From an uncultured Actinomycetes bacterium (GTDB taxonomy: Bacteria > Actinomycetota > Acidimicrobiia > Acidimicrobiales > RAAP-2): a stretch of 32,644 nucleotides of DNA. Under the pieces are notes generated by a model. The model was given only the letters and a program-made list of their open reading frames with translations, was not told where the DNA came from and made no database searches. The translations under genes and the position numbers were made by a program. The DNA lies in contig CAIUMH010000029.1 of NCBI GenBank assembly GCA_903900235.1, positions 1-32,644 on the forward strand, written 5' to 3'. Within the stretch, counting starts at the first letter, position 1. Each line of letters begins with the position of its first letter. Positions 18,870-23,669 of this stretch are shown in pieces.

Positions 18870-19606
18870 TGTCGGCGCCCTTCGTCGAGGTCATGGTTCA
18901 CTGGCCTGACCGTACCCGCACGGAGCGCACTGAGGAGCACACCGGCGGCCACGGCGGCTGTCTCGGTCCTCAGCACCTGGCCCGCAAGGCCCACCGGAGT
19001 GATCCCTCGGTCTGTCTCTTTGTCGCTCCAACCTCCCTCGGGGCCGATGGCGATGATCTGTTCGCCACCAGTGAGCGGTGGGCCCCCGATTGTCCCAAGC
19101 GCCATCGGGGCACCCTCGGCGACGAGGTCATCGATCCGCAGTGGACCTTCGATGACCGGCAGCCAGACCCGACGGGCCTGACAGGCCGCCTCTCGAGCGA
19201 TGCGGCGCCACCGTTCGAGCGCTCGTTCAGCGGCCTCGGGCCTCCACCGCACCGTTGCTCGGTCCGTGACCAGCGCCACGATGCGATCCACGCCGAGCTC
19301 GGTCAGCTTGGCCACCGCCCAGTCGGAGCGATCGCCCTTGACGGGGGCGAAGGCCACCGTCGTCGGCGGCCCGCTCCGCTCTTCAACGATGTGCTCGCCG
19401 ATCGGGCGGACATCACCCTCGGCCACCTCACCGAGGCGCCATGAACCACGCCCGTCGGTGAGGACGACATGCTCGCCGTCACGCAGGCGTCGGACCACCA
19501 GGAGGTGCCGACGATCCTCCTCATCAAGCACCGGTGCATCGAGGTCCTCGACGATGGCCTGCGCCGCAGCAGCCGCACGCCTCTCAAGTCCAGTCAGGGC
19601 CGTCAA
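18866..19606 (-). CDS. rsmE: 16S rRNA (uracil-1498-N3)-methyltransferase RsmE
   Basis: RsmE is a SPOUT-fold enzyme that methylates U1498 of 16S rRNA. The 246-residue protein has an N-terminal PUA-like domain (HLLVVRRLRDGEHVVLTDG) and SPOUT motifs AKLTELGVDRIVALVTDRA, REAACQARRVWLP, IAIGPEGGWSDKE and GQVLRTETAAVAA (knot). The start is an uncommon TTG at 19606. It is chosen because it overlaps the dnaJ stop by four bases (TTGA), in line with the other junctions in this operon. The stop overlaps the HIT gene by four bases. Confidence 0.94.
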   Translation of the reverse strand: MTALTGLERRAAAAAQAIVEDLDAPVLDEEDRRHLLVVRRLRDGEHVVLTDGRGSWRLGEVAEGDVRPIGEHIVEERSGPPTTVAFAPVKGDRSDWAVAKLTELGVDRIVALVTDRATVRWRPEAAERALERWRRIAREAACQARRVWLPVIEGPLRIDDLVAEGAPMALGTIGGPPLTGGEQIIAIGPEGGWSDKETDRGITPVGLAGQVLRTETAAVAAGVLLSALRAGTVRPVNHDLDEGRRQ

Positions 19607-20709
19607 CTGAAGGCTGACCGGATCCGTGACACCACACCCTTGTGACGCTCGGGCGGAGCGAGATGCTCCCCACGAATGGCGGCGAGCTCGCTGAGCAACT
19701 CCACCTCACGGTCGGTCAGGTCCTCAGGAGTCGCCACTTGGACGTGGACATGCAGGTCGCCACGTCCCCGGCCTCGCAGGTGGGTGACGCCGAGTCCTCG
19801 CTGTCGCAGGATCGTTCCCGACTGCGTGCCCGGGTCAATCGCCACGTCCACCGTGCCGTCAAGGGTCTCGACGGCGATCTCGGTGCCAATCGCCACCTGG
19901 GCCATCCCGAGGTGGACCACTGAGTGCAGATCATCCCCGACGCGCTCGAATCGCGGGTCCGGAGTCACGTCGACGTGGACGTACAGCGACCCCGGTGGTC
20001 CGCCTCTCGGCCCCGCCGCTCCTCGTCCATCGAGCCGCAGGGTCGTGCCGCTCTCGACCCCGGCCGGGACGTCGATGGTCAGGGTCCGCTCCTCGGTCAC
20101 CCGTCCATCGCCGCGACAGCGGCCACAGGGCGACCCGATGATCTGTCCCATCCCCTGGCACCGTCCGCAGGGCGAGGACGTAATCATCTGGCCGAGCAGC
20201 GACTGACGTACCCGTCGCACCTCGCCAGCGCCTCCGCACTCGGCGCACACCTCAGGGGTGGTTCCGGCCTCCGCCCCTGAACCACCGCAATCTCCGCACG
20301 CCACCGGGACCCGGATCGTGAGGTCCTCGGCGGAACCGAATGCCGCCTCTGTCAGCGTGAGGGTGACCACTGTCTCCATGTCAGCACCGGCCATGGGGCC
20401 ACGGCGACCCTGGTTGGGGTGCGCCTGCCCGAAGAAGGCATCGAAGATGTCGCCGAAGCCACCGCCTGCTCCGAAGGGGTTGCCGCCCATCTGGGGGCCA
20501 CCGTCTCCGTAGCGGTCATACTGCTGCCGCTTGGCGGGATCAGAGAGGACCTCGTAGGCAGCGGAAACCTTCTTGAACCGATCTTCGGCCGCTGGATCAG
20601 GGTTGGCATCAGGGTGGAGTTCTCGCGCCAGCCGCCGATACGACTTTTTGATCTCCTCAGGGCTGGCATCGGACGCCACCTCGAGGAGCTCATAGAGCTC
20701 AGCCGGCAT
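19603..20709 (-). CDS. dnaJ: Chaperone protein DnaJ (DnaJ2 type)
   Basis: DnaJ stimulates the ATPase of DnaK and delivers unfolded substrates. The 368-residue protein has a J-domain (LYELLEVASDASPEEIKKSY, HPD at 32-34), a Gly/Phe linker (PFGAGGGFGDIFDAFFG) and four zinc-binding repeats (CGDCGGSG, CAECGGAG, CGRCQGMG, CGRCRGDG). It ends with the C-terminal substrate-binding domains. It starts at ATG 20709, overlapping the end of hrcA by 11 bases. Pairing with hrcA is the usual context of actinobacterial dnaJ2. It should be controlled by the HrcA/CIRCE operator before hrcA. Confidence 0.96.
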   Translation of the reverse strand: MPAELYELLEVASDASPEEIKKSYRRLARELHPDANPDPAAEDRFKKVSAAYEVLSDPAKRQQYDRYGDGGPQMGGNPFGAGGGFGDIFDAFFGQAHPNQGRRGPMAGADMETVVTLTLTEAAFGSAEDLTIRVPVACGDCGGSGAEAGTTPEVCAECGGAGEVRRVRQSLLGQMITSSPCGRCQGMGQIIGSPCGRCRGDGRVTEERTLTIDVPAGVESGTTLRLDGRGAAGPRGGPPGSLYVHVDVTPDPRFERVGDDLHSVVHLGMAQVAIGTEIAVETLDGTVDVAIDPGTQSGTILRQRGLGVTHLRGRGRGDLHVHVQVATPEDLTDREVELLSELAAIRGEHLAPPERHKGVVSRIRSAFS

Positions 20710-21781
20710 CGGTCGTCCCTTCGCTGCGGTGCTGGTCCTCACCAAGGTGTCGGCTCAGTTGTCGTCCGACGACCTCTGCGGCGGCCATGGCCGCGGGGTA
20801 GTTCATCCGGGTCGGGCCGAGGAGCCCGACGGCACCGGCCTGCTGTCCTTCAAGGTGGACCGGAGCAACAACGACCGCGCATGACGCCAGGGGCTCAAAT
20901 CCATGCTCGGAACCGATGGCCACCGACAGCCCGGACTCAAGGACGTCGCGCAGCAGTGACACCACCACGAGCTCTTGCTCGAGGATCGACAGCACACCCC
21001 TGACAGTCTCAATGGCGTCGAACGAGCCCGCCAAACGGGAGGGTCCGCCGACGAAGAGCGGCTCGTGGTCAGCCGAACGGCCCACTCCGGCGATCAGCGC
21101 GGCAGCTCGCTCACAGATGATGTCAACCGAAGGGTCACCACTCGCCGGTGCTGCCGCAAGGTCATGGAGTGCGGTGCCATTCCACGCCGCATCGAGGATC
21201 TGGGTGGCCCGCTGGAGTTCCTCTGACGTCACCGTCTCCGATATCTCGATGGCCCGATTCTCGACTCCCCCATCGGAGAGGACCAGCACCACGGTGGCCC
21301 GGATCGACGAGAGACCCACCACCTGCACCGAGCGGACGGTGGCCTGTTCGTGCGATGGACCCACCACCACGGCCGCGTAGGACGTGAGGTCCGAAAGCAG
21401 CGAGCTCGTGCGCTCGAGCATCTCCTCAATTCCCCCTTGGGCCTCAGTGAAGAAGGTCGAGACCTGCTGGTGCTGGGCAGGACCGAGCACACCGGGAGTG
21501 CTGAGGTGATCGACGAAGAAGCGATATCCCTTGTCAGTCGGGATCCGTCCGGCCGAGGTGTGCGGCTGAACCAGATAGCCGTCACGCTCGAGCGCCACCA
21601 TCTCGGAGCGGATGGTGGCGGAAGAGACCGCCACTCCGGAGGCCTGCGCCACATGGCTCGATCCCACGGGTTGAGCGGTGCCGATGTACTCAGTGACGAT
21701 CGCCTCGAGGATGGCAGCCTTGCGGCTGTCGAGTTCCTCGGGCTCGCGCTGAGCTCTGTGGGTGGGGTCAGGTGCGGTCAT
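20699..21781 (-). CDS. hrcA: Heat-inducible transcription repressor HrcA
   Basis: HrcA represses heat-shock genes by binding CIRCE operators, and its folding depends on GroEL. The 360-residue protein has an N-terminal winged helix (RKAAILEAIVTEYIGTAQPV, SSATIRSEMVALERDGYLVQ, HTSAGRIPTDKGYRFFVDHL). A GAF-like regulatory domain follows, with LGPTRMNYPAAMAAAEVVGR near the C-terminus. The start is ATG 21781. A CIRCE-like inverted repeat lies 8 bases upstream of that ATG, so the hrcA/dnaJ unit is probably autoregulated. No groES or groEL gene lies in this window. Confidence 0.96.
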   Translation of the reverse strand: MTAPDPTHRAQREPEELDSRKAAILEAIVTEYIGTAQPVGSSHVAQASGVAVSSATIRSEMVALERDGYLVQPHTSAGRIPTDKGYRFFVDHLSTPGVLGPAQHQQVSTFFTEAQGGIEEMLERTSSLLSDLTSYAAVVVGPSHEQATVRSVQVVGLSSIRATVVLVLSDGGVENRAIEISETVTSEELQRATQILDAAWNGTALHDLAAAPASGDPSVDIICERAAALIAGVGRSADHEPLFVGGPSRLAGSFDAIETVRGVLSILEQELVVVSLLRDVLESGLSVAIGSEHGFEPLASCAVVVAPVHLEGQQAGAVGLLGPTRMNYPAAMAAAEVVGRQLSRHLGEDQHRSEGTTDAG

Positions 21782-21789
21782 GGCGTGCT

Positions 21790-21816
21790 CTGGCAGTCGA
21801 GTCTACCGAGTGCCAG
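21790..21816 (-). promoter_or_regulatory. CIRCE-like HrcA operator with a -10-like hexamer in its spacer
   Basis: Read on the minus strand the site is CTGGCACTC, nine bases, GACTGCCAG. The consensus CIRCE is TTAGCACTC, N9, GAGTGCTAA. The two arms differ from a perfect inverted repeat at one position, and the spacer is exactly nine bases. Thirteen of the 18 arm positions match the consensus. The spacer (GGTAGACTC) contains TAGACT, a plausible -10, so bound HrcA would cover the core promoter. It sits 8 bases before the hrcA ATG. Confidence 0.8.
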
Positions 21817-21854
21817 ACCAGGCGGCACCAGCACCCAGGCGGGCCTCGTCCCGC

Positions 21855-23669
21855 TCAGTCCTCAAGACGGAGTGCAGAGATGAAGGCCTCCTGAGGGACC
21901 TCTACGCGTCCGATGTTCTTCATCTTCTTCTTGCCCTCCTTCTGCTTCTCGAGGAGCTTGCGCTTCCGGGTGATGTCCCCGCCGTAGCACTTGGCCAGTA
22001 CGTCCTTGCGCTTGGCCTTCACAGTCTCGCGACTGATGACCCGCCCGCCGATGGCTGCCTGGATCGGCACGTCGAACATCTGGCGCGGGATCAGCTCCTT
22101 CAGTCGCTCGGCCATCCGCTTGCCATAGGTCTCTGCCGAGGAGCGGTGCACGATGGTCGAGAAGGCATCCACAGAGACATGGTTGATCAAGATGTCGACG
22201 CGGACGAGGTTCGAGGTCTGGTAGCCGGTGCGCTCGTAGTCGAGGCTGGCGTAGCCCTTGGTGCGGCTCTTGAGCTGGTCAAAGAAGTCGAGGACCACCT
22301 CGGCCATGGGGATCGAGTAGATCAGTTCGACCCGCTCAGGGCTCAGATAGTCCATCCGGTCCATCTCAGCTCGCCGACTCTGGCAGAGCTCCATGATCGC
22401 CCCGGTGTGCTCCGACGGGGAGAGAATCGTAATCTTGAGCATCGGCTCGTCGATGTGGTCGATTCGGCTCGCCTCAGGCAGCTCAGTGGGGTTGTCGACC
22501 ACCTTCTCGGTCCCGTCGGTCATGAAGGCCCGGTACACGACCGAGGGAGCCGTAGCGATGATGGAGAGGTTGAATTCCCGATCGAGGCGCTGCGTGATGA
22601 TCTCCATGTGGAGTAGCCCGAGAAAACCACACCGGAATCCGAACCCAAGCGCATGGCTCGACTCTGGCTCGAAGGTGAAGCTCGAGTCGTTGAGCTTGAG
22701 CTTCTCGAGCGAGTCCCGAAGGTCCGGGAGGTCGTCGCCGTCGATCGGATAGAGGCCGCAGAACACCATGGGCAGCGGATCCTGATAGCCAGCCAATGGT
22801 TCGTCAGACCCGTGATGGGCCGTGGTTACCGTCTCGCCCGAACGGGCTTCGCCGACGTCCTTGATGCCGGCAATCAGGTAGCCGACGTCGCCAGGGCCGA
22901 GGCTGGGCATCGGGATCGGCTCGGGGGTGCGAACCCCCATCTCTTCCACGTCGTGCACCGCTCCGGCCTGCATGAACCGCAGTCGATCCGTCGAGCGCAT
23001 GGTCCCCTCGACGATGCGAATCGACGAGACGACCCCGCGGTACTGATCAAAGCTCGAGTCGAAGATCAATCCCTGCAGCGGGGCGGTCGGATCGCCTGTC
23101 GGGGCCGGGATCCGCTCGATGATGGCTCGGAGTAGCTCAGGGATCCCTTCACCCGTCTTGGCGGAGATGGTGAGGATCTCTGCGGCATTGAGGCCGAGGA
23201 CCTGCTCGATCTCGGCCGCACAGCGCTCCGGGTCAGCGGCCGGCAGGTCGATCTTGTTGAGAACCGGAATGATCTCAAGGTCGTTCTCGAGGGCGAGGTA
23301 GCAATTGGCCAAGGTCTGGGCCTGGATGCCCTGAGAGGCGTCAACGAGCAGGACTGCCCCCTCGCACGCCGCCAGCGACCTCGAGACCTCGTAGCCAAAG
23401 TCGACGTGACCCGGGGTATCGATCAACTGGAGAGCGTGGCCCTCGAAGACGACCCGAACGTTTTGCGCCTTGATCGTGATCCCACGCTCGCGCTCAATAT
23501 CCATCGAGTCGAGGTACTGGGCACGCATGTCTCGGGCGTCGACCGCACCCGTGATCTCGAGGATCCGATCCGACAGCGTCGACTTGCCGTGGTCGACGTG
23601 GCTGATAATCGAAAAGTTCCGGATCTTCTCGATTTCGAAGGCATTGGCAGCAGGACGAGAGGGAGTCAC
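21855..23669 (-). CDS. lepA: Elongation factor 4 (LepA), ribosomal back-translocation GTPase
   Basis: LepA is a translational GTPase that affects initiation, back-translocation and 30S biogenesis. The 604-residue protein has G1 SHVDHGKS (23-30), switch I ERGITIK (61-67), G3 DTPGH (84-88) and G4 NKID (138-141). It ends with the LepA-specific C-terminal domain ([20 protein letters not shown] followed by a Lys-rich run). The start is GTG at 23669, with no good Shine-Dalgarno sequence; TACGCT nine bases upstream could serve as a -10. It is divergent from rpsT and separated from hrcA by 73 bases. Confidence 0.97.

Follow-up and report, generated by a model that had tools for sequence, protein, structure and literature searches.

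Within the window, that is, the whole 32,644-nucleotide stretch of DNA analysed here, lepA, hrcA and dnaJ follow one another in this order on the minus strand, with lepA ending 73 bp upstream of hrcA. The interval 21782-21854 is the entire lepA-hrcA gap, and a putative CIRCE operator occupies 21790-21816 of it. The names of the nearest relatives place the window in the class Acidimicrobiia. The features of the locus are as follows.

21855..23669, minus strand: lepA (elongation factor 4), assigned from TIGR01393 and its coordinates
21790..21816, minus strand: predicted CIRCE operator of hrcA, CTGGCACTC-N9-GACTGCCAG, arms 8/9 paired
21798..21807, minus strand: putative extended -10, GGTAGACTCG, fitting Corynebacterium glutamicum sigma-A GNTANANTNG at six of six defined positions
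21800..21805, minus strand: TAGACT, inferred -10 hexamer of hrcA, CIRCE spacer positions 3-8
21792..21794, minus strand: putative start of hrcA transcription, placed 7 nt (+/-1) past the -10 hexamer
20699..21781, minus strand: hrcA, heat-inducible transcriptional repressor (NCBIfam TIGR00331, 266.4 bits, cut-off 197.2)
19603..20709, minus strand: dnaJ (TIGR02349, 378.5 bits, cut-off 377.2)

Read on the minus strand from 21816 to 21790, the operator is CTGGCACTC-GGTAGACTC-GACTGCCAG, and 8 nt (AGCACGCC) separate it from the hrcA ATG at 21781. Its arms are complementary at 8 of 9 positions (row L017 in the alignments); an earlier note on this DNA had given the same pairing and the same distance to the ATG, and both were reproduced on recomputation. 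The TIGR02349 score of dnaJ was obtained for the reading from a TTG at 20745, while the reading from the ATG at 20709 is MPAELYELLEV. This ATG overlaps the 3' end of hrcA at 20699, and dnaJ is probably co-transcribed with hrcA.

The classic CIRCE consensus is TTAGCACTC-N9-GAGTGCTAA (PMC7464140), which we loosened to YTRGCACTC-N9-GAGTGCYAR. The site in the window has one mismatch to this loosened form and a spacer of exactly 9 bases, and the genome encodes HrcA, with TIGR00331 above its cut-off. A search of the window with CTGGCACTC-N9-GAGTGCCAG, allowing three mismatches, returned this site as its one match (1 mismatch); the mean in 100 dinucleotide shuffles of the window was 0.04, with at least one match in 4 of the 100. 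The same pattern and threshold were applied to the window's genome (2.4 Mb, 157 contigs), where eight places matched, compared with five for the reversed control, so that the count alone is weak evidence. Five of the eight adjoin chaperone genes, namely, hrcA, groES on contig C25, groES on C105 (two sites) and groEL on C81. CIRCE thus precedes two groESL pairs (C25 and C105) and a lone groEL (C81). The remaining places, on C15, C55 and C78, have three mismatches each and were set aside as likely chance matches. The earlier note had claimed a CIRCE-like operator and had proposed a genome scan for it, taking the lack of a similar site before groESL as evidence against the claim. That scan was run and CIRCE was found before groESL, which supports the claim. 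On the basis of its sequence and of the CIRCE sites that accompany chaperone genes elsewhere in the genome, the 27-bp element is supported as a CIRCE operator and predicted HrcA site.

Several further observations were made on the chaperone genes. Of the three groEL copies in the genome (C81:12868, C25:3002 and C105:2494), two belong to groESL pairs and one stands alone, and every copy has a CIRCE of its own. A third Cpn10-like gene, on C5, is a weaker match, and no site within three mismatches of the genome-scan pattern was found for it. Two CIRCE-like sites lie 28-49 bases apart in several groES promoters of relatives (L066, L067, L068, L069, L071, L083, L090 and L091), and the genome of the window has such a pair too, at C105:2494 and 2542; the upstream member is often the more degenerate. 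No CIRCE was found within 500 bp before the dnaK of this genome (L196), where every place had at least 5 mismatches. An AT-rich stretch with one CTTGAG half-site lies before this dnaK and might indicate HspR-type control.

The position of TANNNT in hrcA operators was compared across the class. Genes for HrcA were collected from 31 near genomes (found in 30 of 31) and from 60 class genomes (47 of 60); the best 30 loci were kept from each set, giving 56 distinct loci. From named genomes, the best 80 of at least 586 confirmed hrcA loci were kept, and the nearest 40 of these 80 were joined to the 56 to make 96 class loci. This grouping leans on similarity and on the HrcA tree: many of the named relatives are Acidimicrobiales, Acidimicrobiaceae or Ilumatobacteraceae, others are titled no more closely than Actinomycetota, and two bear the name Bifidobacterium breve, which is probably a mislabelling. 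The operator scan ignored the spacer and accepted sites within two mismatches of the loosened consensus.

A CIRCE site was found in 65 of the 96 class hrcA loci, and in 59 of these 65 sites TANNNT falls exactly at spacer positions 3-8; the class rows are related to one another, and such counts are not independent tests. With three doubly represented genomes counted once, the figure is 57 of 63 sites in 93 loci. The placing was found in 33 of 34 sites from the window's order (40 loci), 7 of 10 from the rest of the class (16 loci) and 19 of 21 from the nearest named loci (40 loci). Among cultured species, Acidithrix ferrooxidans (L136) and Aciditerrimonas ferrireducens (L100) have sites of this spacer type. 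Every other TANNNT offset between -44 and 40 was represented in at most 3 of the 65 sites. Across the 63 distinct sites, the information content along the spacer was 1.39 (G), 1.14 (G), 1.54 (T), 1.45 (A), 0.52, 0.45, 0.52 and 1.60 (T) bits, the two bases preceding the hexamer usually being GG. The flanks are unconserved, at 0.01-0.43 bits for bases -59 to -1 and 28 to 52; base 0, which adjoins the arm outside the operator, has 0.59 bits. TANNNT was not at spacer positions 3-8 in six of the 65 class sites (L039, L055, L059, L064, L124 and L134), and in L134 TAGACT is shifted one base further on. L039 and L124 have kept CIRCE and carry GGTAGCAT about 16 nt beyond the operator, a possible third register.

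The arms themselves vary. Of the 65 class hrcA sites, 41 have G and 24 have A at position 3 of the arm, and all 15 sites of other Actinomycetota hrcA have G there. The CTGGCA arm of the window had been described as a departure from TTAGCA that may reflect a lineage-specific consensus; the departure stands, whereas G at position 3 proves to be a wider actinobacterial variant and is not particular to the lineage. At positions 7 and 21, the class sites have C-G (45), C-C (11), G-G (7) or G-C (2 of the 65), a variation that accounts for the departure GAC in the right arm of the window. Bases pair at arm positions 3/25 in 39 of 65 class sites and at 7/21 in 47 of 65, with G-U not counted. These figures bear on the idea that the palindrome arose by chance, or that it forms a terminator or attenuator hairpin in RNA spanning the lepA-hrcA gap. 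The arms could indeed pair in a read-through transcript, but pairing as incomplete as this suits a protein-binding site better than a hairpin, and no terminator-like site was found in a scan of 21600-22100. Chance is opposed by the 0.04 matches expected per window and by the CIRCE sites near chaperone genes elsewhere in the genome. We regard either origin as extremely improbable.

Operators of other genes and other lineages served as controls. In the groES control, matches were found in 31 of 31 near genomes, mostly two in each, and the best 30 loci were kept, one per genome. CIRCE-like sites were present in 29 of these 30 groES loci of relatives, with 40 sites at two mismatches or fewer. None of the 40 has TANNNT at spacer positions 3-8; its last base is instead operator base 1 in 25 of them and base 2 in 3 (28 of 40 together). 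In the window's genome, likewise, TANNNT ends on base 1 at both groES genes, and the lone groEL has neither register. Among other Actinomycetota, 22 hrcA loci yielded 16 sites, of which 0 carried TANNNT in the spacer. Fifteen of the 16 were re-examined, leaving out L158, which is Firmicutes-like and grouped with Firmicutes in the tree. In 11 of the 15, the last base of TANNNT is operator base 1, and in the other 4 it is base 2, which makes a second fixed register (loci within L142-L174). In Firmicutes and one Dehalococcoidia (18 loci), 1 of 18 hrcA sites had TANNNT at the spacer place (L145), and in the 17 Firmicutes sites TANNNT occurred at varied upstream places, its first base lying most often 17-20 bases ahead of the operator. 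Separately, in a Pseudonocardiales-like HrcA clade (L160, L163, L164, L172, L173 and L176), the 400 bp preceding the hrcA match contained no CIRCE at up to two mismatches.

As 0 of 40 groES sites and 0 of 16 sites of other Actinomycetota carry the spacer motif, the motif is not required by HrcA. Class hrcA therefore has an operator register of its own, 16 bp different from the groES register of the same cells.

Of the 31 class loci that have no operator, 20 carry GGTANNNT within 160 bp before the HrcA start, or 19 of 30 once L052 and L137, which are one genome counted twice, are merged; it was not found within this distance in the other 11 of the 31. First-order resampling gave a chance level with a mean of 1.8 and a maximum of 7, and 0 of 500 resamplings were as high as 20. 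The start codon follows closely after the hexamer in some of these loci (6 nt in L122; 7 nt in L127; 9 nt in L123, L125 and L128; 12 nt in L108 and L117) and lies far from GGTANNNT in others, e.g., L023 and L052. L125, where the arms are missing, belongs to Ilumatobacter nonamiensis. In three genomes whose hrcA has no operator (G023, G029 and G030), CIRCE-like sites are still present before groES (L086, L065 and L069). Promoter and operator appear to separate in evolution, as would be expected if sigma reads the one and HrcA the other.

The conserved TANNNT at a fixed place, its absence from groES sites and its survival without arms together lead to the -10 reading. The earlier note's proposal that TAGACT in the spacer is the -10 of hrcA draws support from the 59 of 65 class sites, the 0 of 40 groES sites and the 20 of 31 operator-less loci, and this assignment is strongly supported by comparative sequence evidence. 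Conservation of GGTANNNT inside an HrcA site could also arise if it were a specificity determinant read by HrcA and not by sigma. Such a determinant would be expected neither to be missing from the spacer place of all 40 groES CIRCE sites of relatives nor to persist before hrcA where the operator is gone, and we consider this explanation very unlikely.

The promoter features of the site agree with a -10 in the spacer. The sequence GGTAGACTCG agrees with the extended -10 of C. glutamicum sigma-A, GNTANANTNG (PMC3917453), at six of six defined bases, and the right CIRCE arm begins with its final G; a complete GNTANANTNG match was found in only 29 of the 65 class sites. No conserved -35 was found in the alignment of class hrcA sites, nor was a TTGNCA -35, as in actinobacterial sigma-A promoters, found for hrcA of the window. 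Because the -35 is unidentifiable in many C. glutamicum promoters (PMC3917453), it was not treated as required. A scan of 21600-22100 for sigma-70 consensus promoters gave no match. The lack of this match and of a conserved -35 would fit a real CIRCE whose gene is transcribed mainly from lepA or from a promoter further upstream, with HrcA acting as a roadblock and the spacer not being a promoter; lepA ends only 73 bp upstream on the same strand, and read-through from it could transcribe hrcA. On this explanation, however, the spacer T, A and T would not be expected to be conserved with the spacing of a -10 between unconserved flanks, nor GGTANNNT to be kept without arms in 20 of 31 loci. We therefore consider a roadblock unlikely and retain the -10 in the spacer.

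Transcription typically begins about 7 nt after a -10 hexamer. For the window, this predicts an hrcA start near 21793 and a leader of approximately 11-13 nt. In relatives whose hrcA ATG lies 0, 1 or -1 nt from the operator (e.g., L010, L016, L021, L024, L026, L038, L047 and L110), the leader would be only a few bases long. As hrcA start codons are often so close to the -10, very short leaders or leaderless mRNAs are to be expected. In Deinococcus-Thermus, TANNNT a few bases before the open reading frame drives leaderless transcription (PMC12340547); that group is another phylum, and an operator around the -10 is not described in the available text of that source.

Taken together, the sequence data make it highly probable that the CIRCE operator lies directly over the hrcA core promoter and that HrcA and RNA polymerase would compete for the same bases. 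The 9-base spacer GGTAGACTC would hold the extended -10 with the hexamer TAGACT. If the last T of TAGACT is taken as -7, the operator would reach from about -23 to +4. Once on both arms, HrcA would then cover the -10 and the start, denying sigma the -10, and this direct competition would shut off hrcA and probably also the overlapping dnaJ. Conditions that lower active HrcA would free the promoter. We infer HrcA binding, competition with RNA polymerase, the start site, co-transcription of dnaJ and the very short leader from the arrangement of these elements. Autoregulation of hrcA and dnaJ would follow naturally. The operator alone is not proof of it, because Phrc of Campylobacter jejuni has an HrcA site and was reported not to be deregulated in an hrcA mutant (PMC7464140).

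The distribution of the arrangement was followed on a quick HrcA tree of 134 of 136 loci, from which two were dropped as their readings were under 150 residues. All spacer-type rows fall in one 86-row clade (SH-aLRT 97), with the exception of a single Firmicute row, L145. This clade comprises 59 spacer-type rows, 18 with a -10 only, 6 with neither and 3 with CIRCE alone. CIRCE lacking a spacer -10 is seen in three deeper members of the class, L055, L059 and L064. The spacer-type state is probably old in the 86-row clade, although many inner forks of the tree are weak and gain and loss are not separable by this method.

A strict pattern, GCACTC-NNTANNNTN-GAGTGC, which misses even the window's own site with its GAC arm, was searched in 296 genomes of the phylum and matched in 18; the reversed control matched in one (G268). 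Eight of the 18 loci have an HrcA profile match, and five of these are in the class (L179-L183). Outside the class, the site lies before hrcA on the same strand in L178 and L184, while in L193 the hrcA open frame has the operator at its beginning, but with TANNNT on the opposite strand. Nine further loci are near groEL or groES homologues (L185-L189, L191, L192, L194 and L195), and L190 has no gene match among the matches listed. Thirteen of the 18 genomes are therefore outside the class, three with hrcA, nine near groE genes and one without a match among those listed (L190). Spacer-type CIRCE thus occurs outside the class, also at groE genes, and we claim for it neither an excess over chance nor exclusivity to the class.

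CIRCE and repression overlapping a promoter are already known. The Firmicutes CIRCE/HrcA system (TTAGCACTC-N9-GAGTGCTAA) has the same inverted repeat, the same N9 spacer, the same place before hrcA and an encoded cognate HrcA, but its TANNNT lies mostly upstream of the operator and not in the spacer. Candidate CIRCE elements have been reported at groEL, groES and hrcA of bifidobacteria (PMC9004370). Other Actinomycetota hrcA (Nocardioides, Actinomadura and others) and the groES genes of relatives also have a -10 touching the operator, and G at position 3 is common there. In these, the last base of the -10 is operator base 1 or 2, whereas at hrcA of the class the operator is shifted 16 bp upstream with respect to the -10, which thereby fills the spacer. 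At heat shock promoters of C. jejuni and Helicobacter pylori, the HrcA footprint covers the core promoter or start, as would the site in the window, and a steric block has been proposed (PMC7464140). C. jejuni differs in having HrcA on the start site and HspR upstream, and the available text of that source (PMC7464140) mentions no -10 within the N9 spacer. What appears to be new is that, across a class, the -10 has one set position inside the spacer. Such a class-wide register was not found in the open-licence literature, and older subscription papers could hold it.

Across the class, we consider it reasonably likely that operator and promoter are interlocked in one 27-bp unit, in which sigma would read the spacer and HrcA the arms, and that hrcA mRNA is very short-leadered or leaderless. 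As part of the same reading, the register would be old in the main clade and 16 bp off the groES register of the same cells, and loss of the arms would leave a bare -10, freeing hrcA while groES stays under HrcA. A single guess thereby becomes a class-wide, testable promoter architecture. For hrcA, it yields a -10 and a start site by computation, and it is of help in assigning start codons. The two operator registers, at groES and at hrcA, offer a comparison within the same genome of repression against the position of the operator over the -10.
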